Source of the DNA: Bacteroidota bacterium
GTDB taxonomy: Bacteria; Bacteroidota; Bacteroidia; Flavobacteriales; JADGDT01
Assembly: GCA_039714315.1 (NCBI GenBank)
Contig: JBDLJM010000010.1
Span: 1 to 40,806 of the forward strand
DNA: 40,806 nucleotides
Direction of reading: 5' to 3'
Positions 7,449 to 23,658 of the stretch are shown one piece after another. Within the stretch, counting starts at the first letter, position 1. Every line of letters starts with the position of its first letter. A model generated the notes under the pieces. The model worked only from the letters and a program-made list of their open reading frames with translations, was not told where the DNA came from and ran no database searches. The position numbers and the translations under genes were made by a program.

Positions 7449-8024
7449 TTAAGCAATCCCTGCAAATCCCATAAATGCAAGAGCCAACAATCCTGCTGTT
7501 ACAAAAGCGATAGGAATTCCCGCCATACCTTTTGGTACGTTCGATAGCTCTAAGTGCTCTCGTAATCCTGCAAATGTTGAAAGTGCCAATCCAAAACCTA
7601 CTGCGTTTGCTGCTGCAAAAATTACAGACTCTATAAGTCCGAAACCTTCTGTACCAACTGCTAAAATAGCAACCCCAAGTACAGCACAGTTTGTTGTAAT
7701 CAATGGTAAGAAAATACCAAGTGCCTGATACAATGCAGGAGAAACTTTCTTAAGAACGATCTCTACCAACTGCACAAGCGATGCAATTACAAGAATAAAT
7801 ACAATAGTTTGCATGAATTCTATTCCGTAAGGAACTAAGATATAATTCTGAATCAGGAATGTTACAGTTGTAGCAATAACCATCACAAAGGTTACGGCTC
7901 CTGTCATACCAAAAGAAGTTTCAAGTTTTGTAGAAACTCCCATGAATGGACATACACCCAAGAATTTCGCTAAGACGATGTTATTTACAAATATCGCCGA
8001 TATTACAATCATAAATATTTCCAT
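7449..8024 (-). CDS. rnfA: Ion-translocating ferredoxin:NAD+ oxidoreductase subunit RnfA
   Basis: Integral membrane subunit of the Rnf complex, which couples electron flow between reduced ferredoxin and NAD+ to Na+ or H+ transport. The 191 residues are nearly all hydrophobic, with about six membrane segments, and carry the family sequences FVNNIVLAKFLGVCPFMG near residue 12 and LITTNCAVLGVA near 107. These Cys-containing half-membrane loops are known from Rnf/Nqr structures to hold an iron-sulfur cluster shared with RnfE. Length is typical. It is the last gene of the operon, three bases after rnfE, and is followed by a double terminator. Confidence 0.97.
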   Translation of the reverse strand: MEIFMIVISAIFVNNIVLAKFLGVCPFMGVSTKLETSFGMTGAVTFVMVIATTVTFLIQNYILVPYGIEFMQTIVFILVIASLVQLVEIVLKKVSPALYQALGIFLPLITTNCAVLGVAILAVGTEGFGLIESVIFAAANAVGFGLALSTFAGLREHLELSNVPKGMAGIPIAFVTAGLLALAFMGFAGIA

Positions 8025-8027
8025 GGC

Positions 8028-8660
8028 TTATTTCTTTATTGGGTTAATTTCTACCTTTTGAAGTTTAGCTTTTGCTTCCTGCTTACGTTTGTAAATATTA
8101 AGCAATGCAATAATGAATCCTAACCCGAAGAAACCTCCCGGAGCTAGTACGAAAACCAACATTCCGTCACCTTCCATGAATTTCACATCGAATAATGATC
8201 CACTACCTAATACCTCACGAACAGCTCCCAGTAATGTAAGAGCAAATGTAAATCCAAGTCCCATTCCAAGAGCATCAAGAATAGAATCTAAAGTGTTGTT
8301 TTTAGATGCAAATGCTTCGGCACGACCAAGAATTAAACAGTTTACTACAATCAAAGGAATAAACAGTCCTAATGCTGCGAATAATCCAGGTGTAAATGCC
8401 TGCATTACCAATTGAAGAACTGTTACGAAAGATGCGATTACCACAATAAATGCAGGAATACGAACTTTATCCGGAACAAACCCTTTAATCAAAGAAACAA
8501 CGATATTCGACATCAACAATACAAATGTTGTTGCCAGTCCCATACCAAGTCCGTTGATCGCTGAAGTAGTTGTACCCAATACCGGACACAAACCAAGGAG
8601 CATTACGAAAACAGCGTTTTCTTTTAAAAGTCCTCTTGTAAAAATTGATGCTTTACTCAT
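8028..8660 (-). CDS. rnfE: Rnf complex subunit RnfE
   Basis: Membrane subunit homologous to RnfA and NqrD, 210 residues with about six membrane helices. Family sequences are visible: [20 protein letters not shown] near residue 10 and [19 protein letters not shown] near 103, the inverted counterparts of the RnfA Cys loops that together bind a membrane iron-sulfur cluster. Its first eight bases overlap the end of rnfG (8653-8660), and rnfA begins three bases after its stop, which suggests translational coupling through the operon. Confidence 0.97.
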
Positions 8661-9243
8661 GACGTCCCCCTTTCATATAAGCGTCGTAAGCACGGGTAGC
8701 GGCATCAGAAAATGCTCTTGAAGATATTGTAGCTGCAGTAATTGCATCCACTTCTCCACCGTCCTTAGTTACCTTTAAGTTAAACTCTTTTGGATTTTTA
8801 TCTCTAAACTGTACTGACCAATCCGATTTTTTCACATCCATTTTATCACCCAATCCCGGAGTTTCAGCATGACTTAAAACCGCCGTATTGATAATTGTTC
8901 CATCAGGCTTAAATCCAACCATAATATCGAATCTACCTGAGAATCCAAGTTTTGTATATGTAGAAATAGCTGTTGCAACAAGTTTCCCGTCTGCATCCAT
9001 CACAGGATAACAAGAAAGAGAATCTTTGTCTGAAGCAATCATATATTTATCTCCATACTGAGCATCCTGCAAATCTGATGGAGAAACCACTTTAATAGCG
9101 TTTTCCAAAATCTTTTTATTTGCAAGGGCTATCGGCTCTTTTGTTATTTGGTAAACAAATCCAAGAAGAGCAGAAGCTACCAGGGCAATTCCCCCGAGGG
9201 CAAGTACCATGTTTACTAATGATGATTCTGTTTTATTTGCCAT
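8653..9243 (-). CDS. rnfG: Rnf complex FMN-binding subunit RnfG
   Basis: Periplasm-facing flavoprotein subunit, 196 residues with one N-terminal membrane helix (about 10-32) and an FMN_bind domain. [13 protein letters not shown] (130-142) and [14 protein letters not shown] (165-178) match the family; FMN would be attached by a phosphoester to Thr172. The usual (S/T)GAT attachment motif reads TAAT here, a Gly-to-Ala change at 170 that may be lineage-typical. It starts three bases after rnfD and overlaps rnfE. Confidence 0.95.
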
Positions 9244-9246
9244 AAC

Positions 9247-10221
9247 TTATTTACCGAATCTTTTAGGTTTCATATATCTATTGATAAGCGGTGTCCATCC
9301 ATTCATAAGAAGAATAGCAAAAGAAACCCCTTCAGGATAAGCTCCCCAGGTACGAATAACTATTGTTAAAAGTCCGATACCGACACCAAAGAAAATTTGT
9401 CCTTTAGCACTCATTGGTGAAGTTACCATATCGGTAGCCATAAATACAGCTCCTAATAGCATACCCCCTGTTAAAAGGTGGAAGCTGGGACAAGCGTATT
9501 TTGTTGGATCAACCAGGTAAAGGATTCCTGCTAAAACTGCAGCTGAAACCAACATTGATACCGGAATATGCCATGTAATAACTTTTTTCCACAACATATA
9601 CAATCCTCCCAGAATAATAGCAACAGCCGAAACTTCTCCAAGAGAACCTCCGATATTACCAATAAACATATCTCCAAGAGAAAGTTGTTTCATTATTTCT
9701 ACAGCCGATTCTCCATTTCTCAATCCTTCACCCATTACTCCAAGTGGTGTAGCACCAGTTGTAGCATCAAGAGCAAAATTAAGAACTTCAGGCACAGGCC
9801 AGGAAGTCATCTCTACAGGAAATGAGATCAATAGAAATACACGACCTACAAGAGCCGGGTTGAATGGGTTTTGACCTAATCCTCCAAACGACATCTTACC
9901 TATTCCGATTGCAACCAATGCACCGATAATGATGATATGAATAGGAAGGTTTGAAGGCAGGTTAAACGCCAATAATAAACCTGTAATAATAGCCGAACCG
10001 TCCATTACTGTCGAATCCTGCTTTAGCAAGTATTTTGTTATAGCCCACTCGAAAAATACAGATGCTGCAACAGCTACTGCCGTTACCATTAATGCACCCA
10101 ATCCGAAGTAGTAAACAGAAACTAGCAAAGCCGGAATCATGGCTATTACAACAGTCCACATCACTTTAGTCATAGAGTTTCCGCTATGAATATGTGGTGA
10201 AGGTGAAAGTGTAAGTTTCAT
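9247..10221 (-). CDS. rnfD: Rnf complex FMN-binding membrane subunit RnfD
   Basis: Membrane subunit with about nine to ten helices, 324 residues, homologous to NqrB. The FMN attachment motif is LDATTGATPLG (151-161), with Thr158 the expected flavinylated residue. Other family sequences are SPHIHSGNSMTKVM at the N terminus and FGGLGQNPFNPALVGRVFL (112-130). It begins 19 bases after rnfC and is three bases from rnfG, the standard Rnf order C-D-G-E-A. Confidence 0.96.
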   Translation of the reverse strand: MKLTLSPSPHIHSGNSMTKVMWTVVIAMIPALLVSVYYFGLGALMVTAVAVAASVFFEWAITKYLLKQDSTVMDGSAIITGLLLAFNLPSNLPIHIIIIGALVAIGIGKMSFGGLGQNPFNPALVGRVFLLISFPVEMTSWPVPEVLNFALDATTGATPLGVMGEGLRNGESAVEIMKQLSLGDMFIGNIGGSLGEVSAVAIILGGLYMLWKKVITWHIPVSMLVSAAVLAGILYLVDPTKYACPSFHLLTGGMLLGAVFMATDMVTSPMSAKGQIFFGVGIGLLTIVIRTWGAYPEGVSFAILLMNGWTPLINRYMKPKRFGK

Positions 10222-10240
10222 ACTAATAATATCTTATAAA

Positions 10241-11587
10241 TTATTTACTAGAATTTTTTCTACGATTCTCTAATACTTTACTCTTATCCAAACGGATGTA
10301 ATCCAATAAAGGACGATCGGAAGGACAAACAAAACTACATGAACCACATTCTATACAGTCCATAGTATCTTCTTGTTCGGCTCTATCCCACATACGTTTT
10401 TCACCAAGAGTCATAAGTAAAAATGGCTCTAATCCTGCAGGACATACGCTAACACACTTAGCACATCTGATACATGCATTCATTTCACCACGCCTGGATT
10501 CGTCCTGCTTCATGATAAGAACTCCTGAAGTACCTTTAGTAACAGGAACTTCAGTATCAGCAATAGCTTTACCCATCATTGGTCCTCCGGAAATAAGTTT
10601 ACCGGTATCTTGTGGTAAGCCTCCTGATTTTTCAACTAATTGTTCTATTGGAGTACCCATACGAACCATGTAGTTTCCAGGATTAGAAACAGACTTTCCT
10701 GTTAGAGTAACAACACGCTCAAGCATAGGCTTGTTTTTTTGTACAGCTTCGTAAACTGCAAAAGCAGTACCTACGTTCTGAACAACACAACCTACATGGA
10801 TAGGAAGTTTTCCGGAAGGAACTTCACGACCAATAAGTGCAGCGATTAATTGTTTCTCACCACCTTGAGGATATTGAACTTTAAGAGGGTGAACAGAAAT
10901 ACCATCGTATTTGGCAGCGATTTGCTCCATGTTTTTGATAGCATCAGGTTTGTTGTTCTCAATTCCGATCATAGCCTTAGTAACACCTAAAGCATTCATC
11001 AAAATTTTGATACCAACCATTATTTCTTCACCTTTTTCAAGCATCATTCTATGATCTGATGTCAGGTAAGGCTCACACTCTACCCCATTGATCATTAAAT
11101 ACTCGGCTTTTTCTCCATCAGGAACAGCAAGTTTTACATGCGATGGGAAAGTTGCTCCACCAAGACCTACAATACCAAATTCTGATACTTTTTTCTTGAT
11201 CTCGTCAGCAGATGCTTTAATTTCGGAAATCAAATCTTCCGAACGGTCGATTGATTCTTCCCATGCATCCTCTCCATCAGCCTGAATAATAACAGCTTCG
11301 CGCTTATAACCCGAAGAATCTGTTACAACATCAATTTTCTTTACTTTTCCTGATACAGAAGAGTGAATATTAGCAGAAACAAAACCACCCGACTGAGCAA
11401 GTAATGTTCCAACTTTCACTTCCTGATTCTTCTTAACAACCACTTTGGCAGGAGCACCGATATGCTGAGATACCGGAATTGCATATAATCCTTTTTCCTG
11501 TGGTGCTATTATTTCTATAGCGGCGTTTGCTGATAATTTATTCTCTTCAGGATGAACGCCTCCTTTTGGAAATGTTTTTAACCCCAT
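10241..11587 (-). CDS. rnfC: Rnf complex NADH-side iron-sulfur flavoprotein subunit RnfC
   Basis: Peripheral cytoplasmic subunit that binds NADH, FMN and two [4Fe-4S] clusters. I place the start at ATG 11587, giving MGLKTFPKGGVHPEENK (448 residues), the usual RnfC beginning four bases after the rnfB stop; a start at 11668 would add 27 atypical residues overlapping rnfB. Visible are GLGGATFPSHVKL (nucleotide/flavin-binding fold), a SLBB-like central part, and two ferredoxin motifs near the C terminus, CIRCAKCVSVCPAGLEP and CIECGSCSFVCPSDRP. Confidence 0.96.
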   Translation of the reverse strand: MGLKTFPKGGVHPEENKLSANAAIEIIAPQEKGLYAIPVSQHIGAPAKVVVKKNQEVKVGTLLAQSGGFVSANIHSSVSGKVKKIDVVTDSSGYKREAVIIQADGEDAWEESIDRSEDLISEIKASADEIKKKVSEFGIVGLGGATFPSHVKLAVPDGEKAEYLMINGVECEPYLTSDHRMMLEKGEEIMVGIKILMNALGVTKAMIGIENNKPDAIKNMEQIAAKYDGISVHPLKVQYPQGGEKQLIAALIGREVPSGKLPIHVGCVVQNVGTAFAVYEAVQKNKPMLERVVTLTGKSVSNPGNYMVRMGTPIEQLVEKSGGLPQDTGKLISGGPMMGKAIADTEVPVTKGTSGVLIMKQDESRRGEMNACIRCAKCVSVCPAGLEPFLLMTLGEKRMWDRAEQEDTMDCIECGSCSFVCPSDRPLLDYIRLDKSKVLENRRKNSSK

Positions 11588-11591
11588 AATA

Positions 11592-12749
11592 TTATTCTTT
11601 TGAAGTTGATAAATTATCATCACCATCTTTCTTAGCTTCTGGCTTTTGGCTTTTGGCCTTTGGCTCAACTTGCTCAGGTGCTGATTCTTTCTTTTCTACA
11701 GCTTTCTCCTCTTCAGCTTTTGGAGCTTCAGTTTTTGGAGCAGCCTCTTTCTTATCGATAGCCTTCTTAACAGCAGCAGGAGCTTTCTTAACTTCCTCTG
11801 CTTGTTTTGGAGCCTTTTCTTTTACCATTTTTGTTAAATCAAGTTCATCAGCTTCAACAGCTTTTTCTACTTTTTTAACAACCGGTTTTTTAGCGGGCTT
11901 CTTGTTAGGATTTTCAGCTTTTCTTGGAGGAAAATTAATATCCAAAATAGCATCTGTAGGACATTCGTAAACACATTTACGACAGCTTGTACAAAGTTCG
12001 TAGTCGATGTAAGCCAAAGAATTTTCTACGGTAATTGCATCCGCAGGACATACCTTAACACATTTACTACAACCTATACATGCAGCCTCACACGCTTTTT
12101 TGGCAACATTTCCTTTTTCCTCGTTCATACAAGCAACATAGATTCGAAGGTTTCTTTTCCCCTTCCCAATCGAACGTAACTCGAACAAGTCTTTCGGACA
12201 AGCCTCAACACATGCGTTACACGCAGTACAGTTGTCTTCATTAACTACAGGTAATCCTGTTACAGGATCCATTGATAATGCATCAAAATCACACACATCA
12301 ACGCACTCTCCTAAACCAACACAGCCAAACGAACACCCTGTTTCACCGGAATAAAGATTAGAAGCAACAGTACAGTTACTAGCACCATCAAACTCATTTG
12401 TTTGAGGACGCATAGCTTCGGTACCATTACAACGAAGAACAGCAATTACACGTTCCTTTTCGGCTACTTCAAGCCCAAGGATTCCGGCAACTTTCTGCAT
12501 AGTTTCGTTACCTCCTACCGGACAGTAAAGATCATCTAGGTTTTCGGCTTTCGTTGTTGCTTCAGCAAACGGACGACAACCGGGATAACCACAACCTCCA
12601 CAGTTCGATAAAGGAAGAACTTCTTCTACTTCTCCAATTAACGGGTTTTCGATTACTTTGAATTTAACAGATGCAAAATAAAGTACAATCGCAAACACTA
12701 CGGCAATAACCACAGCAGTAAGAATTGTATAAATTAAAACAGCACTCAT
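11592..12749 (-). CDS. rnfB: Rnf complex iron-sulfur subunit RnfB with long Lys/Ala/Pro-rich tail
   Basis: Electron-entry subunit that accepts electrons from ferredoxin. An N-terminal membrane anchor (residues 5-27) is followed by the Fe4S domain NCGGCGYPGCRPFAEA (Cys50, 53, 58, with Cys76), then ferredoxin-type motifs CTACNACVEACP, CIGCSKCVKVCP and CTSCRKCVYECP (174-263). A low-complexity extension of about 110 residues (274-385), rich in Lys, Ala, Glu and Pro, follows. Its last part is encoded by a run of GGCTTTT-type repeats (plus strand 11641-11664), probably an intergenic-type repeat captured in frame. Total length of 385 is longer than most RnfB because of this tail. Confidence 0.95.
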   Translation of the reverse strand: MSAVLIYTILTAVVIAVVFAIVLYFASVKFKVIENPLIGEVEEVLPLSNCGGCGYPGCRPFAEATTKAENLDDLYCPVGGNETMQKVAGILGLEVAEKERVIAVLRCNGTEAMRPQTNEFDGASNCTVASNLYSGETGCSFGCVGLGECVDVCDFDALSMDPVTGLPVVNEDNCTACNACVEACPKDLFELRSIGKGKRNLRIYVACMNEEKGNVAKKACEAACIGCSKCVKVCPADAITVENSLAYIDYELCTSCRKCVYECPTDAILDINFPPRKAENPNKKPAKKPVVKKVEKAVEADELDLTKMVKEKAPKQAEEVKKAPAAVKKAIDKKEAAPKTEAPKAEEEKAVEKKESAPEQVEPKAKSQKPEAKKDGDDNLSTSKE

Positions 12750-12800
12750 ATTATAGCAAAGTTTGAAATATAAAAATTAACAATTACACTCTATCTTAAA

Positions 12801-12828
12801 GACAAAAGTAAAAAGACAAAAGTAAAAA
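12801..12828. repeat. 14-bp tandem repeat between rseC-like gene and rnfB
   Basis: Two exact adjacent copies of GACAAAAGTAAAAA (12801-12814 and 12815-12828), followed by related AAAGT words to about 12868. The words resemble AAAGT-rich intergenic repeats common in flavobacteria. It occupies most of the 120-base spacer inside the rnf operon. Confidence 0.7.
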
Positions 12829-12869
12829 GTGTATCACTTTAAACTTTGGACTTTATACTTTGTACTTGT

Positions 12870-13292
12870 TTACTTATCATTATCAAATCTAAATTCGAAC
12901 AACGCCCGAATATTATTCTTTAAAAAGAACAGACCTGCATAATAAATTGGTAGTACTCCAAGGGCTACCAGTCCTTTTATTAAATCACTTTCAGTAAAAA
13001 ATGAAGAAACTACCATTGCTGCTACCATCAATATAAATGGTAAAAGATAACCTATAAATAAGGCTATAAATCCTTCACTTCGAGTGAAAACAATGTTTAC
13101 TTTATCACCCTTTTTGTAGTTACGATTCTTAATAGGTACCTGCACCTCCTTAATACTAGATTCCGACGAACTACATGCTCCGGTTAATTCACATGAAGCA
13201 CATGATGTTTTTTGTAAAATTTCGACAGTTGCAATCTCACCGTCAATCGACTTAATTACACCTTCGTGATCTATCTCCTGAAAATCTCCCAT
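12870..13292 (-). CDS. RseC/MucC-family protein (SoxR-reducing system type), first gene of the rnf operon
   Basis: A 140-residue membrane protein. The N-terminal soluble part has a four-Cys cluster CASCELTGACSSS, preceded by a short beta-rich GVIKSIDGEIATVEI stretch; two membrane helices follow at about 76-97 and 105-123. This matches RseC/MucC proteins, which accompany Rnf in many bacteria and are part of the system that keeps SoxR reduced in enterobacteria. In this lineage it probably serves assembly or redox function of the Rnf complex. It lies 120 bases before rnfB on the same strand. A possible -7 box (TATCTTTG, minus strand, 13361-13368) precedes it, without a clear -33 partner. Confidence 0.88.
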   Translation of the reverse strand: MGDFQEIDHEGVIKSIDGEIATVEILQKTSCASCELTGACSSSESSIKEVQVPIKNRNYKKGDKVNIVFTRSEGFIALFIGYLLPFILMVAAMVVSSFFTESDLIKGLVALGVLPIYYAGLFFLKNNIRALFEFRFDNDK

Positions 13293-13510
13293 TTCTCTTC
13301 AAAATAACTTCTAAAACTCCCAAATTCTAAAAACGGCACAAATTTACTGAAAACCGCGTGCAAAGATATGATAAATAACAGTTTATATACTAAAGAGTCG
13401 AACATAAAATCATATCGTTATATTTCAATAAGTTATACCTTAATTAAGAAATATTCTAAATACTAATAGTGAAATACGGACATATTTGATATATGAACTT
13501 AATATAATTA

Positions 13511-13539
13511 CAAAAAAAACACCTCCAAAAGGAGATGTT
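13511..13539 (-). terminator. Terminator of the SPOR-like gene
   Basis: On the minus strand ACATCTCC (13538-13531) pairs with GGAGGTGT (13526-13519) with one G-T pair and a TTTT loop, followed by seven T residues. It lies about 30 bases after the stop of the 13571-14188 gene. Confidence 0.8.
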
Positions 13540-13570
13540 AACAACAATTTTCTGTAAAATTTAAAAAATA

Positions 13571-14188
13571 CTAACTCTTCTCAATTTTAACAGCCTCTTT
13601 TAAGTTTATACTTTCACCTTTATATTCGGCTATCATGAAGGCTGACCTAATTCCCATCTTTCTTACTTCCCTTTCAAACTTTAAAGCCTCTTTATAGTGA
13701 TTAAAAACACCTAATGAATACTTATTAAATCCTCTGTCATTCTTTTCAAGAACTCCTGATAAATCAGGACTGTACATCCCCATTTTAAACTTTTGAAATG
13801 CACCAATCTGTACTCTGTATACTAAATCTGATTCTAAAACATTATCATTGGCATTTTCTTCCAATAGAGTATTGAGGTTTTCTATCTTAACCTTGTAATC
13901 TAAATTTTCTGCATTTAATTTTTCAAGCTTTGAAGACAGATATTCTGAATTGGAAACCTTTGTCTTATACTCTCCAAGTATTGGTCCAAACACATAAGTG
14001 TAACCCAATAAAGTTATTAAAACAGCTAAAAATCCATAAAGACTGTATATAACAGTTTTACGATTCTCTTTTTCTCTGTTTAAACCTGTTACTTGACCAA
14101 TTAATTCTTTTTTTTGATTTTCAAGATTTTCAATATTAGACATAAGTGTTGCTATTTGCTCTTTTGCCTCTTGGGGAATGTAGACCAT
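13571..14188 (-). CDS. Membrane-anchored coiled-coil protein with SPOR-like C-terminal domain
   Basis: A 205-residue protein. Residues 1-42 form a hydrophilic heptad-like helix, 47-70 a membrane helix (YSLYGFLAVLITLLGYTYVF), 75-115 another coiled coil. The C-terminal part begins LVYRVQIGAFQKF and contains FNKYSLGVFNHYKEALKFEREVRKMG in sequence, the pattern of SPOR domains that bind denuded peptidoglycan at division sites. It could tether envelope machinery to the cell wall. It lies downstream of the beta-barrel gene and the HD-gene remnant; a -7-like TATATTTG at 14225-14232 (minus) suggests separate transcription. Confidence 0.75.
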   Translation of the reverse strand: MVYIPQEAKEQIATLMSNIENLENQKKELIGQVTGLNREKENRKTVIYSLYGFLAVLITLLGYTYVFGPILGEYKTKVSNSEYLSSKLEKLNAENLDYKVKIENLNTLLEENANDNVLESDLVYRVQIGAFQKFKMGMYSPDLSGVLEKNDRGFNKYSLGVFNHYKEALKFEREVRKMGIRSAFMIAEYKGESINLKEAVKIEKS

Positions 14189-14249: not shown

Positions 14250-14411
14250 TTAGTCTTTAAAATTATATTTTTTCATTACTTCACACATAACTGTAAAACA
14301 CTGCAATACATAAAAATACACCCCTACCTTAACTTCCACTTTCTTTTTAAGTAAGAAAATACTATCATGATCTTTCCTGAATATAAACTGTAAATCTTTA
14401 AACTTATAACA
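14250..14411 (-). pseudogene. Decayed second copy of the 3' end of the HD phosphohydrolase gene
   Basis: A minus-strand frame without any ATG, GTG or TTG start after its upstream in-frame stop reads KDHDSIFLLKK, then 21 residues, then VMKKYNFKD and a stop at 14250-14252. The intact HD protein (20811-22052) has KDHDSIFLLKK at 368-378, 21 residues, then AMKKY: identical spacing. At the DNA level 14265-14374 aligns without gaps to 20841-20950 with about 75 of 110 bases identical, and AAAATACTATCATGATCTTT is identical in both (14356-14375 and 20932-20951). I read this as a gene remnant. It occupies most of the gap between the SPOR-like gene and the beta-barrel gene. Confidence 0.75.
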
Positions 14412-14451
14412 TCTAAGAAACTACCCCCAACTATCATTATTTCTTTCTTTA

Positions 14452-15618
14452 TTAATCAAATAATGAAATATTTACACCAAATAGGACTTCGTAGGTACTA
14501 TAAGACCGTCTGGTAACTGCATAGTCCAATTCGGAATTTGAATCTCTATTATCAGAAATAATATTCAAGAAAAGGTCTACTTTTTTTAATATTTCATATT
14601 GGATTTTAAAATCATACTTTAAGTAATTATAAATAAGCAAATCAGAATTTTCGACAATGGTATATGCATATCTTACATCATAATTATACTTTTTATAAGC
14701 TGCATTTAAATATACCAACAACCTCTTATCTGAATATTTCATTTTTAATTTTGGGCTTAAATAAGTATAGCTGTAATACCCATTGTATAAGTCATCGCGT
14801 TTTGTATAATTAAATCCGGGACTAACCGAAAAATTTTCAAACATCTTTAAAGAATAGTTTACACCAATCGAATAATATTGATAATGTCTTAAAGGATAAC
14901 CACTTTTAATACTTCCCAAGCTATCGGAAGCTGTATAATATTTATACTTTCGATCAGTAAAATTAGCTGTTAGTCTTATTTTATTTTTTTTATTTATTGA
15001 ATACTCTATATCAAAACGCATTCTTAGATTAGAATGATCTAATGGCGTATTTGAATTATCATCATAGTATTTCTTAATCTGGTAAGTACTTCCTAGTTTT
15101 AGATCAAAATTATTCAAATTGTCTACTTTAAAATAAATACCCGGAGTATTTCCTATATATTTTACTGAACGCAGCAATTCATCACCAGAAATTGTAGTCC
15201 CCAACTTGTCGTTCCACGAAAAGCCATATTCCATACCAACAATCATGTTTCTTGAAATAAACCTTTCATATCTGGAGCTCACTCCAAGTTTTGTTTGATT
15301 TACATTTGGATATTGGAAATATCTTCTATGCCATAACTTACTGCCTATTTCAAATATATACTTGCCTTTTTTCTTCTTGCTAAATTTTGTATCGTATCCT
15401 AAATCAATAAAATAATCTGATAATATTAGGGCATCCTTATTTATATATTCATCGATATCACGATCAAATAATATTTCCGGACTGTTGTATATGTTATACT
15501 CATAGCCTCCATATGTAAAAAGCTTCGTTTTATACTTTGTTTGCGCGATTACATTTGTTGAAAGCACAGACATTAACATTACAATAGATAATATATTTCT
15601 AATAATACTGGGTGTCAT
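14452..15618 (-). CDS. Predicted outer-membrane beta-barrel protein, last gene of the transglutaminase/ATP-grasp operon
   Basis: A 388-residue protein with a signal peptide (about 1-25, ending VIAQT). The mature part is a series of alternating-hydrophobicity strands rich in Tyr, Phe, Asn and Lys with short turns (for example YEFGF-like GMEYGFSW, RMRFDIEYSI, IRLTANFTD, YSIGVNYSL, LLVYLNAAYKKYN), and ends in VLFGVNISLFD. That is the profile of an outer-membrane barrel of about 16 strands. I recognise no named family. It starts 30 bases after the TPR gene and probably forms the outer-membrane component of that operon. Confidence 0.75.
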   Translation of the reverse strand: MTPSIIRNILSIVMLMSVLSTNVIAQTKYKTKLFTYGGYEYNIYNSPEILFDRDIDEYINKDALILSDYFIDLGYDTKFSKKKKGKYIFEIGSKLWHRRYFQYPNVNQTKLGVSSRYERFISRNMIVGMEYGFSWNDKLGTTISGDELLRSVKYIGNTPGIYFKVDNLNNFDLKLGSTYQIKKYYDDNSNTPLDHSNLRMRFDIEYSINKKNKIRLTANFTDRKYKYYTASDSLGSIKSGYPLRHYQYYSIGVNYSLKMFENFSVSPGFNYTKRDDLYNGYYSYTYLSPKLKMKYSDKRLLVYLNAAYKKYNYDVRYAYTIVENSDLLIYNYLKYDFKIQYEILKKVDLFLNIISDNRDSNSELDYAVTRRSYSTYEVLFGVNISLFD

Positions 15619-15648
15619 TTATCAATAGCTTTTTAGTTTTATTATGTA

Positions 15649-17973
15649 TTAAATACTATTCTCTTCATCTGTTTTAATTTCTCTACCATCTTTTTTAACA
15701 ATATTTATTTCCTTTTTGTGTACAATTTTAAAATCTGGATCTATTTTAAGCAGTCGCTGATAATAAATATCGGCCTTTTCTTTTATGCTTTTAAGCTCAT
15801 AAACCTGTCCCAAACGGTAAAGGGCAAATTTATGCTTAGAGTCCATTTTTAATGATTTCTTAAAGTAATTAATCGACTGATCATATTCCTTTAAATCAAA
15901 TTGTATCATCCCTACCCAGTAAGCTGTCCAACTTTTTTTAGCACCGTTCTTTTCCGCTAACTCAAACGCACTTATAGCTTTTTCATACTCTTTCAATTTA
16001 TACAATTCCTTCCCTACGGAGTATAACTCTTTTCCGTCAGGATTCAGTTTCAGCCAATTTAACCTGGTACTTAGAGCATTTGGAGTATCATTGGCGTTTT
16101 GGTATAGTCCTACCAGCCTGTTATATGCTTTAGTATAATTACGTTTAAGTTGAATAGCTCTAATGTATTGGTAAATTGCATCGTCAAATCGTCCGGCCTT
16201 CTCATATTGAAGAGCCAGATTGAAACGTAATCCAGGATTTTCAACATCTCTATCAGTGGCATCTTCAAATGTCTTTATAGCCATATTTATATCTCCTGTA
16301 CGAGCATATAATACTCCAATGTTAATTTTAGCTTTTATATTTTCGGGATCAATCTCAATAACTTTCAAATAGGCTTCAATAGCCTTGGGGTATTGTTGCG
16401 ATTTAGTATAAGCTAATGCCATATTATAATAAGCTCGGGCATAATTTGGATATTTTTTTACAAGGGACTGATAATTACCTATAGCATTATTAAATTGCTT
16501 AAGTTTTGAATATAAAACTCCTAAAGATGAAAGAGCCTTAAGGTAATCGGGTTTGACCCAAATAGCCCTCTTATACGCTTCAACTGCTTTGTCATATTTT
16601 TGTTGCTTTTCATAGATCGATGCAAGGCCGTACCAGCTTTTGAATGATTTAAAATTGTATTTAATTGCTAATTTATAATTGGAAACAGCATTTTTTACAT
16701 CTTCCATATCTGTATATAACAATGCAAGATTATAATATGCAAATGAATAATTAGGTTTCATTTTAACTGCCAACAGATAACTTTCAATTGCTTTTTTCAG
16801 TTCTTTTTTGTTTTTGTACAAAACAGCCTGATTTAAAGTTGCTTCCGGGTAATCAAAACCTGATTTTTTTATTGCCAGTCCATACAACTTAATTGCTTCA
16901 TCGATATTACCTTTTTTAGAAGCTAGTTTTGCTTCATGAAAATATGTTTGTGGCAAAGTCTCATAAAGAGAAAAACCGGCAATAATTAATTCAGCTTCAT
17001 CATATCTCTCCTGCTTAACTAAAAACGCACTAAGCTCTTCAATAATCTTTTCATCATTTGGATTTATCTCTAATGCCTTTCGTAAATGATACTCAGCTTT
17101 AGGAATTTGATTATCTTCCGAATAAAGTTTCCCGAGATAAAAGTTGGCATAGTAAGAATTTGTATTTAATCTATATACCTTTAAAAGTTCATTTTCTCTA
17201 ACCTGTTTATCTTCACTTATCATAGCCAGATAAACCCTTGGCAGTTGATATTTAGGTTTATATTCAATAGATTTATTAAAGCTTTTAGTTGCTGATATTG
17301 TATCCAATAACTTTAATTTTGCAATTCCGTAATAACAATAACTCTTTGCTTTTACTTCTCCTGAAGAAAGTTCAATACTTTTTTTTAGTTCAGCTTCAGC
17401 TTCATCCCATCTTTCCAGATTTGACAACAATAATGCAAGGTTAAAATGAGGTTTAGGATTCAACTCATTAATGGTTATGGCTTTTCTATAGGCGATCTCA
17501 GCATTACTGTACTGGCGTAATTTTGACGATGACACAGCAAGGTTAATATAAGCGGCAAAGAATGTTGAATCAAGTAATGTAGCAGTCTTAAAATACTTGT
17601 ATGCATCTCCATATTTGTGTTTTTTAAGAGAAACTAATCCTAAATAATTGCTAACCAACGAATTATTACCCCTCAACTCAAGGCGCTTAAATATCTTCAA
17701 AGCCTTATCATAGTTTTCATTTTTATAATGCCTTCTGGCTATTATATAAGTAGAGTCATTCTTTAATAAATTTCTTTTTAGTGTAGTTGAGGATTCATCA
17801 ATTTCGAAACTCACAATATTCTCCGATTCTACAACATTACCTGCTTTTATATTTATTACTTCCGGAGCTCCGGATATTTGTTCAGCATAGGAATTAAGAT
17901 AGATAATTAATACAAAAACACCTATAAGCAGAATAATAAATGGAATAAAACTATTTAATATTTTTTTTATCAT
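15649..17973 (-). CDS. Membrane-anchored tetratricopeptide-repeat protein
   Basis: A 774-residue protein: an N-terminal membrane anchor (about 7-28), a linker to about 75, then an almost continuous array of 34-residue TPR units to about 760 (for example AAYINLAVSSSKLRQYSNAEIAYRKAI and ARAYYNMALAYTKSQQYPKAIEAYLKVIEIDPEN in pieces), roughly 18-20 repeats. TPR arrays scaffold protein complexes; long anchored periplasmic TPR proteins pair with outer-membrane barrels in several export systems. It overlaps the ATP-grasp gene by four bases (ATGA) and is 30 bases before the barrel gene. The function is inferred from context only. Confidence 0.85.
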   Translation of the reverse strand: MIKKILNSFIPFIILLIGVFVLIIYLNSYAEQISGAPEVINIKAGNVVESENIVSFEIDESSTTLKRNLLKNDSTYIIARRHYKNENYDKALKIFKRLELRGNNSLVSNYLGLVSLKKHKYGDAYKYFKTATLLDSTFFAAYINLAVSSSKLRQYSNAEIAYRKAITINELNPKPHFNLALLLSNLERWDEAEAELKKSIELSSGEVKAKSYCYYGIAKLKLLDTISATKSFNKSIEYKPKYQLPRVYLAMISEDKQVRENELLKVYRLNTNSYYANFYLGKLYSEDNQIPKAEYHLRKALEINPNDEKIIEELSAFLVKQERYDEAELIIAGFSLYETLPQTYFHEAKLASKKGNIDEAIKLYGLAIKKSGFDYPEATLNQAVLYKNKKELKKAIESYLLAVKMKPNYSFAYYNLALLYTDMEDVKNAVSNYKLAIKYNFKSFKSWYGLASIYEKQQKYDKAVEAYKRAIWVKPDYLKALSSLGVLYSKLKQFNNAIGNYQSLVKKYPNYARAYYNMALAYTKSQQYPKAIEAYLKVIEIDPENIKAKINIGVLYARTGDINMAIKTFEDATDRDVENPGLRFNLALQYEKAGRFDDAIYQYIRAIQLKRNYTKAYNRLVGLYQNANDTPNALSTRLNWLKLNPDGKELYSVGKELYKLKEYEKAISAFELAEKNGAKKSWTAYWVGMIQFDLKEYDQSINYFKKSLKMDSKHKFALYRLGQVYELKSIKEKADIYYQRLLKIDPDFKIVHKKEINIVKKDGREIKTDEENSI

Positions 17974-18854
17974 AATTGTATATTTTTATCTACGCTCTCC
18001 TTCAACCCTATTTTATTAATATTTTGTATTTGAAGTCCGGGACGGGCATTTACCTCTATAACCATAGGTCCCGAATAACGGTCTAAAATAATATCCACTC
18101 CCAAATAGTCAAGAGGGAATAATTTAGATGTTTCAATAGAAATTTCTAATGTTTTACTCCAGTCAGGTATTACTTTACCTGCAAAGTAATTTCCTGAATC
18201 CGGATGATAGTCTACATATTTATTTTTATAGAAACCCTGAGTAACAATCCCTCTGTCCATATCTACACCTATCCCTATCGCTCCCTGATGTAAATTCGCT
18301 TTTCCTCCCGATTTATTGGTTGGTACACGAAGCATTGCCATCAAAGGGATACCTTTGAGAAGAATTATCCTAAAATCAGGAATACCTTTGTCGTATATTC
18401 CTGTTAGAAACGGATGTGGTGTCAGGCAGTATTCGATAATGGCTTTATCTTTATCTCCGCTTGAATACACCCCATAGAGTATTGAAGCCAAGTGATGATA
18501 AAGTTTATTTTTTTTATACACCTCTCCCGAATGCGTCGTCCAAACACCTTCGTCCTTTTGAAATAAAATTAATATTCCGCCTCCTCCACTTCCATTAGCA
18601 GGCTTTATCACTATCTCTTTTTGAATTAAAATTTGCTCTAATATTGTACTTATCTCCCATAACTCATTTACAACCGCATAAGTAACAGGAACAGGAACTC
18701 CATTTTTTTCAAGAATAGACTTGGCCAATACCTTGTCATTTGCCAATGGGAAATGTTTTCGAGGATTATTTGGATATACATATTCGAGATTCCGCTGATT
18801 AATACCAACCAAGTACTCACTTGCATTCAAAATCTTTTTTAATAATTTCTTCAT
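17970..18854 (-). CDS. ATP-grasp amide ligase, alpha-L-glutamate-ligase-related
   Basis: A 294-residue RimK-like ATP-grasp enzyme of the family annotated as alpha-L-glutamate ligase-related, known to co-occur with 7TM transglutaminase-like proteins. Visible: FPLANDKVLAKSILEKNGVPVP (36-56), ATP-binding Lys84 in VIKPANGSGGGGILIL, substrate-loop-like NLHQGAIGIGVD (187-198), and the Mg-binding end LGVDIILDR...MVIEVNARPGLQIQN with Glu267 and Asn269. It should activate a carboxylate as acyl phosphate and join it to an amine in the cytoplasm; substrates are unknown. It overlaps both neighbours by four bases, so the three genes are tightly coupled. Confidence 0.85.
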   Translation of the reverse strand: MKKLLKKILNASEYLVGINQRNLEYVYPNNPRKHFPLANDKVLAKSILEKNGVPVPVTYAVVNELWEISTILEQILIQKEIVIKPANGSGGGGILILFQKDEGVWTTHSGEVYKKNKLYHHLASILYGVYSSGDKDKAIIEYCLTPHPFLTGIYDKGIPDFRIILLKGIPLMAMLRVPTNKSGGKANLHQGAIGIGVDMDRGIVTQGFYKNKYVDYHPDSGNYFAGKVIPDWSKTLEISIETSKLFPLDYLGVDIILDRYSGPMVIEVNARPGLQIQNINKIGLKESVDKNIQL

Positions 18855-20476
18855 CTCAATAAAACTCTAAAACGGATAAACTCAATAACCCTAATTCCTA
18901 TCCATTGACCTAATAAAAGATTTAATCCTATAATGACTAAAAACAGCTCAGGAAAAGCTAAAAAGAAAGCCTCCATAGAGTCAGAATTCATTGCGAAATA
19001 TGCAACAGACGACACTATAAGCGTTTGTAATGTAATTAACAAGGCCTGTACAAATCCTTCCTCACTTATTGTTCTGGCGAACCTCTCGGCACTTATAGTA
19101 AGTATTACAATAGGGAAAAGAGCTATATATGCAAGAGAACTAATATTTAATTCAATAGAGAGATAGGATATTATAAGAAAAAGTATAACTACTGCTACCA
19201 GCATAATCACCAACTTAGGAGTATATAATATGCCCCATTTTTCGAGAGGAAAATGTACCAGGCTTACAACTCCTATAACTATCATAAAAGCTATTAATCC
19301 CCAAAACAATCCGGTTTCGCGACTTGCAACAGCTATTAATGCTGGCAGAAAAACACCAAATGTTTGCATTCCTATTACATTGCGGAAAATTGCCACAATC
19401 AATGCTCCCAATGGAAGTAATAACACGATTTTTAATAGTCCGATTGGAATTCCGATACTCTCGAACAGTTTCCACAACTGGTATGCATTAAAAGGGTGTG
19501 ACTTTAATTCTTGTTGAAGTAATGGATTTGGACTTAGTCTTGACTTAACATTAAACTTGTATTCAAAATTAATGTTTTTTGTGTGTGAAAACAGAAATTT
19601 ATCACCGCGATACATGGATAAATAATTATGTGGCAAAAATGCAAAATGGTTGTTCAATGGATCAAATGGTACCCATTCATTGCCTATATAAGCCTCAACC
19701 CATTGATGTGAAGTTTTTTTTGTGCCGGATTCCAAAATTATCCCTCCAACCAAACGCGAAGGTATATTTGCAGAACGAGCTAACGCTATAAACAGTCTAC
19801 TTTTTCCATTACACGATGCTTCTCCCAGTCTTGCTGCTGTAAGAGCATCTGTAACCCCCTTAAATGGTCTTGATTTAAGTGAATTAGTGTAACTCTGAAT
19901 ATTGGCAAGCACCTCCAATATTTGATCATTATCTCCTACTTCCTCTTGGAAAATTCGATTTATCTGTGGATGTTTTACCTGTATGTTTTTGGTTGTCTTT
20001 AAGTATTCGTTAAAACTTGGAGGATATGTTTTAGGTATAATCAGGGTAGAATCAATGTTATATTTTATAGCCCTTCCAATAAATTCAAAAGAATACCTTA
20101 TAGGTAACATTCCATTTCCATTCATTGTATTCCATGTTCCTACTCTACCAGATTTAGTCTGTTCTACTAAAAAATTTAAACTCGGACTATTATTTGTTTC
20201 ATAACTAATTGTCTGTCTGTTATCTGATATTGGCAGGTAAGTGGAAATATTAACAGGCTGACTAAATCCCCTCGAAGAAATATCAATATTGACCTCATAC
20301 TTTTTTTGAGGTAAGATATTTTTAAAAGTATATTCCCATGAAATAAATTTTACAGAAATAACACCGATAGTAATTAATATAAATGCAAATGAAATTAATC
20401 GAGCTACGTTCATGGATATGATATTTATGTGATATGAATCATCTTTTTTTCGAAAGCGCGAATATAAAAAAATCAT
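18851..20476 (-). CDS. Transglutaminase-like domain fused to seven membrane helices
   Basis: 541 residues: an N-terminal membrane helix (about 28-46), an extracytoplasmic part with a transglutaminase core (about 185-280), and seven C-terminal helices (about 343-525). The family is described as an inactive transglutaminase fused to 7TM (Transglut_i_TM plus 7TM_transglut), yet here GEASCNGKSRLF (Cys222), TSHQWVEAY (His257) and WVPFDPLN (Asp272) give a complete Cys-His-Asp triad. ATG 20413 (MNVARLISF, 520 residues) is an attractive alternative start, since it puts the helix right after the N terminus. First gene of the four-gene operon; a weak promoter-like TTTG-N22-CTGTTTTG lies just upstream. 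Confidence 0.87.
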   Translation of the reverse strand: MIFLYSRFRKKDDSYHINIISMNVARLISFAFILITIGVISVKFISWEYTFKNILPQKKYEVNIDISSRGFSQPVNISTYLPISDNRQTISYETNNSPSLNFLVEQTKSGRVGTWNTMNGNGMLPIRYSFEFIGRAIKYNIDSTLIIPKTYPPSFNEYLKTTKNIQVKHPQINRIFQEEVGDNDQILEVLANIQSYTNSLKSRPFKGVTDALTAARLGEASCNGKSRLFIALARSANIPSRLVGGIILESGTKKTSHQWVEAYIGNEWVPFDPLNNHFAFLPHNYLSMYRGDKFLFSHTKNINFEYKFNVKSRLSPNPLLQQELKSHPFNAYQLWKLFESIGIPIGLLKIVLLLPLGALIVAIFRNVIGMQTFGVFLPALIAVASRETGLFWGLIAFMIVIGVVSLVHFPLEKWGILYTPKLVIMLVAVVILFLIISYLSIELNISSLAYIALFPIVILTISAERFARTISEEGFVQALLITLQTLIVSSVAYFAMNSDSMEAFFLAFPELFLVIIGLNLLLGQWIGIRVIEFIRFRVLLR

Positions 20477-20810
20477 GATATAAATAGGAGAATTCTAAAC
20501 AAAACAGCTCTGATTATATCGATTTTTTTCAAACTCAATGCCAGGTATTACAGGCATTGTAGGCATTCTCCTTAAGGAGGTAGTAGTGTAAAATTACTAA
20601 GCCGTAATTTCTTTGTAAGAAGAAAAAAAGGCTTTGATTATTGCCAACAAAGTATAAATAATAATAGCTAATAGATTTCAATAAAATATAACAACATGAA
20701 ACCCCAAATAAGTATTTACGTTATACTAATTAAATTTCAAGATGATCTGTTAGAAAAGATAATGTGTATTAGCTGCGCTGAACCTAAAAGTTTTTGATGT
20801 TTATTTTGTA
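20477..20810. other. 334-base non-coding gap with small inverted repeats
   Basis: Between two minus-strand genes. It holds an inverted repeat CAATGCC (20536-20542) / GGCATTG (20553-20559), a 12-bp palindrome CTCCTTAAGGAG (20568-20579) and AAATTAC (20591-20597) / GTAATTT (20604-20610), all within 75 bases upstream of the transglutaminase-7TM gene, where an operator or leader structure is possible. No terminator for the HD gene and no gene are seen. Confidence 0.5.
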
Positions 20811-22052
20811 TTATTCTACTTCCCGCGGATAGATCAGATAATATTTTTTCATTGCTTCAGAAATTGCCGAAACACTTTGCTGATCAGGAGAAAATGCAAT
20901 ATCCTGTACCTCTCCATCTTTTTTTAGTAAAAAAATACTATCATGATCTTTTATGTAGGCATTGTTTTCTACTTTTCCCTGTATAATATAATTCTCTGTT
21001 TCTTCAAAAGAAATATCAAAAGCCTTTGCAACTTTACTCCTTAAACTGTCAACGTAAGATGACTCTATTGGAACATCTCCTAAGCGAATCTTCAACAACT
21101 TTCTATCGGTAAGTCTTTTTGACAAATCTGATAATATTTTATCATTGTGGTTTGTCCACTCCTTTATCGCGCCAAAAACATCATAGTCGTCCAATTTGGA
21201 AAACATTTCTAGGTCCTCCTGTTCAAATTCATTTACATCCCAATTTCGTTTAAGAAAATAACTTAAAGAACTACTTGAAAATAACTCTACACCTTCTAAC
21301 GCAAGTTTTCTGGCACGCGACAAAGCTTTTGTCAACAGTTTTTCTGATACAATCACCGTTTTATGTAAATATACCTGCCAGTACATTAGTCTGCGTGCAA
21401 CCAAAAATTTTTCAACTGAATAAATACCTTTATCATCTATAGCCAGGTTATCGTTAGCTACATTAAGCATAGTAATCAATCTTTTAGAATTGATAGCCCC
21501 TTCTACTACCCCACTATAAAACGAATCGCGATTGAGGTAATCCATACGATCCATATCAAGTTGGGATGAAATTAATTGATGGAGGAATTTCTTTTTATAA
21601 CGATTTTCAAAAATCTGAATTGCTAAACTCAGCCTATTATTAAATTCTTCATTCAGTTTATGCATAAACCTTACCGAAATCTCTTCATGAGTCACTGAAG
21701 GAACAATACTATGTTCCAATGCGTGCGAATACGGACCATGTCCCATATCGTGAAGTAAAATGGCAATTAAGGTGGCCAATTCTTCTTCTTCACTTATTTT
21801 ATGCCCCTTGAACCTTAATACTTCTATAGCGTTCTTGGTCAGGTGCATTGCACCTATCGCATGATGAAAACGTGTATGATGGGCTCCTGGATAAACATAT
21901 GATGTTAGAGCTGTTTGGCTAATTCGGCGTAATCGTTGAAAATAGCGATGTTCTATTATATCAAAAATTAATTCATCAGTAATGGCAATAAAGCCATAAA
22001 CCGGGTCGTTAATAATTTTTAACTTATTTCTATCCTTCTTATTAGCAAGCAA
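20811..22052 (-). CDS. HD-domain phosphohydrolase (COG1078 / dNTPase-like)
   Basis: A 413-residue metal-dependent phosphohydrolase of the dGTPase-like HD superfamily. The family start KIINDPVYGFI is followed by HHTRFHHAIGAMHL (metal His63/64), LLHDMGHGPYSHALEH (the HD pair at 101-102) and SSQLDMDRMDYLNRDSFYSGV, a family signature. The only in-frame start before KIINDPVYGF is TTG at 22052, as an upstream stop occurs five codons earlier. The C-terminal 46 residues (from KDHDSIFLLKK) are partly repeated in the remnant at 14250-14411. Diverges from porX with a 55-base gap; a minus-strand TAAATTTG (22077-22084) may be its -7 box. Confidence 0.9.
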   Translation of the reverse strand: MLANKKDRNKLKIINDPVYGFIAITDELIFDIIEHRYFQRLRRISQTALTSYVYPGAHHTRFHHAIGAMHLTKNAIEVLRFKGHKISEEEELATLIAILLHDMGHGPYSHALEHSIVPSVTHEEISVRFMHKLNEEFNNRLSLAIQIFENRYKKKFLHQLISSQLDMDRMDYLNRDSFYSGVVEGAINSKRLITMLNVANDNLAIDDKGIYSVEKFLVARRLMYWQVYLHKTVIVSEKLLTKALSRARKLALEGVELFSSSSLSYFLKRNWDVNEFEQEDLEMFSKLDDYDVFGAIKEWTNHNDKILSDLSKRLTDRKLLKIRLGDVPIESSYVDSLRSKVAKAFDISFEETENYIIQGKVENNAYIKDHDSIFLLKKDGEVQDIAFSPDQQSVSAISEAMKKYYLIYPREVE

Positions 22053-22107: not shown

Positions 22108-23658
22108 ATGGCTAAAATCAAAATATTATGGGTCGATGATGAAATCGAGCTATTGAGACCGCATATAATTTTTCTGGAAAAAAAAGGATATTATGTTGAT
22201 ACATGCACAAATGGTACTGATGCTATCGATAAAATAGACCAGGAAACTTTCGATATTGTATTTCTGGATGAAAATATGCCAGGTATTACGGGACTTGAAA
22301 CATTGATGATAATCAAGGAAAAACGCCCCAGTCTGCCTATTGTTATGATTACTAAAAGTGAGGAAGAGTTAATTATGGAAGAAGCCATTGGCTCTAAAAT
22401 CTCAGACTACCTTATAAAACCTGTTAATCCTAATCAAATTCTGTTAAGCTTAAAGAAAAGTCTTGATACATCCAGACTGGTTTCAGAAAAAACTACTTCT
22501 AATTATCAGCAGGAATTTAGAAAAATATCTATGGATTTAATGGATGTTCGTACTTACGAAGATTGGATTAACATCTATAAAAAATTGCTTTATTGGGAGA
22601 TTGAGCTTGAAAGAATTCAGGATGAAGGAATGGTTCAAATTCTTGAAACACAAAAAAAAGAAGCAAATTCCTTATTTTTCAAGTTCGTAAAAAACAATTA
22701 TGAAGATTGGTTTTACGAGGAAGATAAGCCGGTTATGTCGCACATGGCCTTTAAAGAATATATTTATCCAAAGTTAAAAGATGGCGAACGATCAGTATTA
22801 TTAATGATTGACAACCTGCGTTATGACCAATGGAAAATATTGGAGCCAATCATTAACGAATATTACAACACTGTTAAAGATGATGCATATTACGCTATTC
22901 TGCCAACAGCGACACAATATGCCAGAAATGCTTTTTTCGCCGGTTTAATGCCATTAGAAATTGAGAAACGCTTTCCCGAATTATGGAAAAACGACACAGA
23001 TGAGGGAGGTAAAAACTTGTATGAGAAAGAGCTTTTACTGGATCAAATAAAAAGGTTGGGGATGAATATTAATACTCATTATTCCAAAATATCAAGCTTA
23101 AATGCAGGTAAAAAGTTCGTTGAAAATTTTAAAAATATATCAACCAGTAACCACTTTACAGCTGTAGTTTACAACTTTGTCGACATGCTTTCGCATTCGA
23201 GAACTGAGATGGAGGTTATTAAGGAATTAGCTTCAAACGATAAGGCCTACAGATCGTTAACTATAAGCTGGTTCAAAAACTCTCCTTTATTTGAGATCAT
23301 TAAACTGGCCGCTAAATCCGGATTAAAACTCTATATTACAACAGATCACGGAACGATAAACGTAAACACTCCTTCAAAACTTGTGGGTGACAAAAACACA
23401 AGTCTTAACTTAAGATATAAACAAGGAAAAAGTTTGTCATACGAAAAACGGGATGTATTGGCTATTAAAGACCCTCACGATGTTTTCCTGCCAAAAATTA
23501 ATGTGAGCAGTTCTTATGTTTTTGCAAAAGAAGATATGTTTTTTGCTTATCCTAACAATTATAACCATTATGTTAAGTACTATAAAAACACTTATCAGCA
23601 CGGTGGAGTTTCATTAGAAGAAATGATAATTCCTTTTATAGAACTGGAACCAAAATAG
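22108..23658 (+). CDS. porX: T9SS response regulator PorX (receiver plus PglZ domain)
   Basis: 516 residues. The receiver domain (1-125) has the acidic pair Asp10/Asp11 in WVDDE, phosphoacceptor Asp54 in FLDENMPG and Lys104 in LIKP. A helical linker follows, then a PglZ domain of the alkaline-phosphatase superfamily (about 205-516) with LLMIDNLRYDQWK, the catalytic-loop sequence PTATQYARN (Thr267/269), VVYNFVDMLSH, ITTDHGT and a final YQHGGVSLEEMIIPF. This is the arrangement of PorX, which with the kinase PorY controls T9SS genes; phosphorylation-dependent dimerisation and oligonucleotide phosphodiesterase activity are reported for the family. Consistent with the T9SS cargo genes at 4.2-6.8 kb. 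Confidence 0.95.
   Translation: MAKIKILWVDDEIELLRPHIIFLEKKGYYVDTCTNGTDAIDKIDQETFDIVFLDENMPGITGLETLMIIKEKRPSLPIVMITKSEEELIMEEAIGSKISDYLIKPVNPNQILLSLKKSLDTSRLVSEKTTSNYQQEFRKISMDLMDVRTYEDWINIYKKLLYWEIELERIQDEGMVQILETQKKEANSLFFKFVKNNYEDWFYEEDKPVMSHMAFKEYIYPKLKDGERSVLLMIDNLRYDQWKILEPIINEYYNTVKDDAYYAILPTATQYARNAFFAGLMPLEIEKRFPELWKNDTDEGGKNLYEKELLLDQIKRLGMNINTHYSKISSLNAGKKFVENFKNISTSNHFTAVVYNFVDMLSHSRTEMEVIKELASNDKAYRSLTISWFKNSPLFEIIKLAAKSGLKLYITTDHGTINVNTPSKLVGDKNTSLNLRYKQGKSLSYEKRDVLAIKDPHDVFLPKINVSSSYVFAKEDMFFAYPNNYNHYVKYYKNTYQHGGVSLEEMIIPFIELEPK

Follow-up and report, generated by a model that had tools for sequence, protein, structure and literature searches.

Arrangement of the Locus

The window, the whole stretch of 40,806 nucleotides that was analyzed, raises the question of how an operon of four genes came to lie between two copies of the 3′ end of a gene for an HD-domain phosphohydrolase, and how that gene remained whole. 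The assembly, apparently a draft, is in 273 contigs. The elements of the locus are, in order of position:

13571..14188, minus strand, SPOR-like membrane gene, the ancestral downstream neighbor of the HD gene, 40% identical to the gene right after HD in the same-genus genome G001
14262..14375, minus strand, left copy of the HD 3′ end, decayed, at the ancestral HD-SPOR junction and collinear with G001 from the HD end to the SPOR start
14376..14451, no strand assigned, 76-bp stretch without resemblance to HD, forming the left border of the insertion
14452..15618, minus strand, cassette gene 4, probable outer-membrane β-barrel of 388 residues, 29–33% identical to the fourth gene of the operons L044, L045, and L047 described below
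15649..17973, minus strand, cassette gene 3, TPR protein of 774 residues with an N-terminal hydrophobic anchor (TPR families), overlapping gene 2 by 4 bp
17970..18854, minus strand, cassette gene 2, ATP-grasp ligase of 294 residues (PF14397, E 4e-68), overlapping gene 1 by 4 bp
18851..20476, minus strand, cassette gene 1 (the lead gene), transglutaminase-like domain fused to seven transmembrane helices, 541 residues (PF14402, 154.8 bits; PF01841), with the Cys-His-Asp triad intact
20477..20724, minus strand, intergenic operon leader (248 bp) that probably holds the promoter and the 5′ UTR
20725..20809, no strand assigned, internally deleted copy of a MITE-like dispersed repeat, reaching to within 1 nt of the HD stop codon, with related sequence at about 20708–20815
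20811..20951, minus strand, intact, native right copy of the HD 3′ end, 141 bp to the stop codon, with homology to the left copy detectable over the first 114 nt
20811..22052, minus strand, HD-domain phosphohydrolase gene, intact, 413 residues (PF01966, PF19276), 80% identical in amino acids to its G001 orthologue

The arrangement is likely the outcome of the insertion of a horizontally acquired operon into the 3′ end of the HD gene, with duplication of the target, after the split from G001.

An Empty Site in a Congener

The sequence-only reading had suggested looking among close relatives for a genome in which the HD gene is followed directly by the SPOR-like gene without the cassette, and G001 shows such an empty locus. 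This genome, 97% complete, is the only informative congener; the other, G002, is 68% complete and has no HD match. The HD and PorX genes of G001 (80 and 87% amino acid identity, respectively) stand in the same divergent arrangement as in the window, and the SPOR-like gene has an orthologue (40%) that starts 59 bp past the HD stop codon with nothing between. The first codons of the SPOR-like gene are almost identical in DNA in the two genomes. Neither G001 nor the 68%-complete G002 yielded a match to the cassette lead gene.

Downstream of the SPOR-like gene the gene order differs, with RseC and an Rnf operon in the window (7449–13571) and with rubrerythrin, an amino-acid permease, TrkH, and MarC in G001 (L033, 9918–15834), which is an unrelated rearrangement. 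The idea that the region after SPOR is a hot spot for insertions was rejected, since in G001 ordinary metabolic and transport genes follow. A further divergent PorX-HD pair occurs in the window's own genome (G000) on contig C206 (L035, 3993 bp), 64 and 52% identical to the pair in the window, where G001 has a single HD gene; this contig is possibly a contaminant in the draft assembly. In genome G051, the HD gene (contig C14:106269–107475) is broken into two adjoining frames, a frameshift or assembly error.

The Two Copies of the HD 3′ End

The 20-bp perfect repeat that had been claimed for this locus, AAAATACTATCATGATCTTT, lies in the same orientation at exactly 14356–14375 and 20932–20951 and occurs exactly twice in the window; in dinucleotide shuffles of the window the mean number of matches was 0.05, and none of 100 reached two, even with three mismatches allowed. 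Four open reading frames sit between the two copies and none encodes an integrase, as the sequence-only reading had it. From the repeat onward, an ungapped alignment of the left copy with the 3′ end of the HD gene runs over 114 nt with 78 identities (68%). The roughly 75 of 110 matching bases reported earlier thus hold as an overall figure, whereas the 36 mismatches are unevenly spread, with two in the first 32 nt (30/32 matching), 32 in the next 60, and two in the last 22. Judging from the alignment, small compensating indels may be the cause of the mismatch cluster in the middle 60 nt: in a gapped alignment of the copies, several small indels cover part of this region. Consequently, the apparently open frame of the left copy may be partly luck. 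This minus-strand frame has no start codon and was correctly read before as KDHDSIFLLKK...VMKKY; it ends ...VMKKYNFKD*.

The homology breaks off sharply upstream of AAAGATCATG, and the 76 nt from the left copy to the outer-membrane protein gene are unlike HD (381 of 1000 shuffles score as well against the HD upstream sequence). The left copy is not part of another conserved gene. A chance similarity, for which the AT-rich DNA and the length of only 114 nt might speak, has a negligible probability and is refuted by shuffles and position: the alignment outscored all 2000 dinucleotide-preserving shuffles, and the left copy lies exactly where the HD 3′ end lies in G001, its ATGAAAAAATAT block being 90 bp before the SPOR start in the window and 101 bp before it in G001.

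Ancestry of the Two Copies

The 114 aligned sites were classified by their states in the left copy, the right copy, and G001. All three agree at 64 sites and all differ at four; the left and right copies share a state against G001 at 14, the left copy and G001 at four, and the right copy and G001 at 28. Private changes thus number 28 in the left copy against four in the right. By these site patterns the left copy groups with the right copy and has changed about seven times more; it is a same-lineage duplicate that decayed under relaxed constraint. The 22 differences between the right copy and G001 are mostly at third codon positions (12), whereas those between left and right copies are spread over the three positions (15, 12, and 9). 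A duplication older than the split of G000 and G001 predicts that the 14 and four shared states should be about equal; the two-sided binomial p value of about 0.03 (our own arithmetic) moderately favors a duplication later than the split, as judged from these sites.

The DNA identity of the HD gene to G001 is 80.1% within the duplicated part and 73.6% in the rest, without a drop across the repeat, and so the intact end is not foreign. The foreign replacement end proposed in the sequence-only reading does not survive this comparison, the right copy being native (80 versus 74% to G001) and the left copy sharing 14 states with it as against four with G001. A substitute 3′ end carried by an element is likewise rejected by the site patterns and the HD identity profile; a very closely related donor would still fit.

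Origin of the Cassette

The genome-wide search covered the lead gene, which was found in two of 298 genomes of the order and six of 396 of the phylum, both counts including the window's own genome. Its nearest homologues are in a Bacteroidales metagenome-assembled genome (MAG; L045, 63% identity) and a Caldithrix MAG (L044, 59%), whereas the lead gene of the other carrier of the same order, G137, is 37% identical. PorX, used as a housekeeping control, gave the reverse ranking, with 67% for G137, 55% for the L045 genome, and 44% for the L044 (Caldithrix) genome. All four genes are present, in the same order as in the cassette, in L044, L045, and a further Bacteroidales MAG, L047. In these operons the lead gene is 57–63% identical to that of the window and, for L044 and L045, the third gene is 35–39% identical to cassette gene 3; unlike in the window, no HD, SPOR, or PorX gene is nearby. 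In the lead-gene tree the window and L045 are joined with support of 99/96, and the ATP-grasp tree gave no supported placement for the window. The cassette is, as judged from the distribution of the lead gene and its identity ranking versus that of PorX, horizontally acquired. A foreign base composition was rejected, GC and GC3 (0.25–0.29 for the latter) being as in the flanks; the transfer would then be old or the donor of similar composition. That the lead gene came from a plasmid or phage was also rejected, with two distant matches in the plasmid collection and no match to phage sequences.

The Right Border

The MITE-like repeat has imperfect inverted ends, ACCAAATAAACATC and ACCAATTAAATTTC. 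Searching its own genome with the copy from the window gave 19 places, and with a longer copy 46; G001 has two weakly matching places. Members of the family (about 85–270 bp, with a variable interior) also lie at 640–945 of L056 and at other places in G000. By these counts the family is a lineage-specific expansion; a search for an autonomous element of the family found none. As the repeat abuts the HD stop codon, the right border is hidden and the full length of the duplication is not measurable. The left border contains no sequence repeated in its own genome. A composite element flanked by MITEs was rejected, there being a single copy at the right border only, and the lack of one at the left border makes it unlikely that the repeat carried the cassette.

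Mechanism of Insertion and Alternatives

Taken together, the findings give good support to an insertion that duplicated 114 bp or more of the target, and break repair or an equivalent illegitimate event is the preferred mechanism. The four-gene RloB/RloC-like envelope operon would have arrived by horizontal transfer and landed within ∼140 bp of the end of the HD gene once the lineage had split from G001, duplicating at least 114 bp and up to 141 bp or more of the target. The right copy would have stayed in the HD reading frame, leaving the gene whole and under selection, and the left copy would have stayed joined to the SPOR gene, where, coding for nothing, it decayed. Insertion and duplication were presumably one event, the duplication arising from the break or strand exchange itself, by staggered-end fill-in or by tandem duplication with capture. 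An insertion without duplication would cut 46 codons off HD, so that the duplicates would be the survivors. Such an outcome has a precedent in the integrative conjugative element (ICE) Tn5253, whose insertion in rbgA duplicates a long stretch of the target and thereby makes the coding sequence whole again (PMC8571831). The present locus resembles it in the insertion inside a gene and the long restoring duplication and differs in that Tn5253 is a circle-forming element, whereas the cassette consists of four cargo-type genes without a recombinase and one of the copies has decayed.

A break-repair insertion, or a tandem duplication followed by insertion, fits the data as well as a site-specific element does. 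The latter duplication route would take two events: the HD 3′ end would first have been duplicated in tandem, and the operon would have entered between the copies later; it needs no special machinery and gives the same final arrangement. This sequence of events is possible but doubtful, as it demands two happenings at one place, and the left copy begins exactly where the cassette-side sequence starts, with no leftover tandem sequence seen. Site-specific integration, in which a recombinase of the element would have cut in HD and the attachment site brought a substitute 3′ end, as for Tn5253 in rbgA, the integrase being since lost or provided in trans, appears somewhat less likely still. The sharp start of the repeat and its 30/32 match followed by 60 poorly matching nucleotides are as for an attachment core, and an ICE that restores its target gene by duplicating attB, up to 84 bp, is known (PMC8571831). 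The right copy, however, is native rather than donor-like, the four cassette genes show no mobility or phage function, and the plasmid-collection matches of the lead gene are distant. Moreover, no integrase lies between the copies or elsewhere on the contig, where a profile search with PF00589 gave no match (contig C10), in agreement with the earlier statement that none is visible; three tyrosine recombinases, two of them XerC/XerD-sized, are on other contigs.

A variant in which the operon moves between phyla as compact cargo and landed through a 32-bp HD core recognized by a trans-acting recombinase, as an integrase-less cassette that restores gene ends, is improbable. That the genus had the cassette from the start and G001 lost it through recombination between the direct repeats is slightly more improbable again: the repeats would permit a precise deletion leaving an empty site, but 296 of 298 genomes of the order lack the lead gene, which was found in neither congener, and the states shared by left and right copies that G001 lacks (14 versus 4) speak weakly against it. 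The gene-end-restoring insertion of the sequence-only reading is thus retained as to the cassette in the HD end and the duplicated 3′ end beyond it, the check it proposed being borne out by the empty site in G001, whereas its site-specific element is unsupported, no integrase lying between the copies or on the contig, and its foreign end fails.

Relationship to the rlo Operon and Possible Function

The cassette has in common with the rlo operon (RloA-RloB-RloC) of Pseudomonas aeruginosa a seven-transmembrane protein with a periplasmic transglutaminase-like domain (PF14402) adjoining a gene for a cytosolic ATP-grasp protein. In P. aeruginosa, RloB is a seven-transmembrane inactive transglutaminase and RloC the ATP-grasp protein, and mutants lacking RloA proteases show osmotic, biofilm, and morphology defects that loss of rloB/rloC suppresses wholly or partly (PMC12239564). 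Loss of a seven-transmembrane inactive transglutaminase in another bacterium leads to more membrane vesicles (PMC12096838). The cassette differs from the rlo operon in its intact Cys-His-Asp triad, which is inactive in RloB, in the score of gene 1 on the RloB model (160 bits against a cut-off of 900), and in the TPR and β-barrel-like proteins that complete the operon. A match to the RloA-type protease (PF05618, secreted retropepsin-like) was absent from G000, and one is present in the L045 genome (contig C37). The ATP-grasp protein scores 287.9 bits on TIGR02291, under the cut-off of 314.2. Cassette gene 4 has no Pfam or NCBIfam match; its predicted structure, of low confidence (pLDDT 46), is all-β with 16 strands and a signal-like N terminus.

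By analogy with these systems, the operon likely encodes a trans-envelope modification system, in which the cytosolic ligase would make an amide-linked product, the membrane transglutaminase-like protein would act in the periplasm, and the TPR and β-barrel proteins would link the system to the outer membrane. The footprint at this locus shows how a whole functional operon can be accommodated within a gene that remains unbroken, and which of two duplicated gene ends is retained by selection. It further reveals a rare operon, present in Bacteroidota and Calditrichota, that is related to the rlo stress-tolerance system but lacks the rlo protease; should this operon be active, the chemistry of the rlo family, so far unknown, would become open to testing.

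The Pfam and NCBIfam families of the transglutaminase-7TM protein are described as inactive, yet the triad is intact here; it is also found in most aligned relatives (L043–L051, L071, and L072), with L073 and L074 being without the Cys. The operon leader (20477..20724) contains no sequence repeated in its own genome outside the MITE part and no Rfam match worth keeping, and an RNA or riboswitch was rejected for want of an Rfam family. At 20538–20568 the leader carries ATGCCAGGTATTACAGGCATTG, which matches 22 nt of the coding sequence for the PorX receiver domain (22276–22297) at 86% identity and reads MPGITGI, a resemblance that is chance or a relic.
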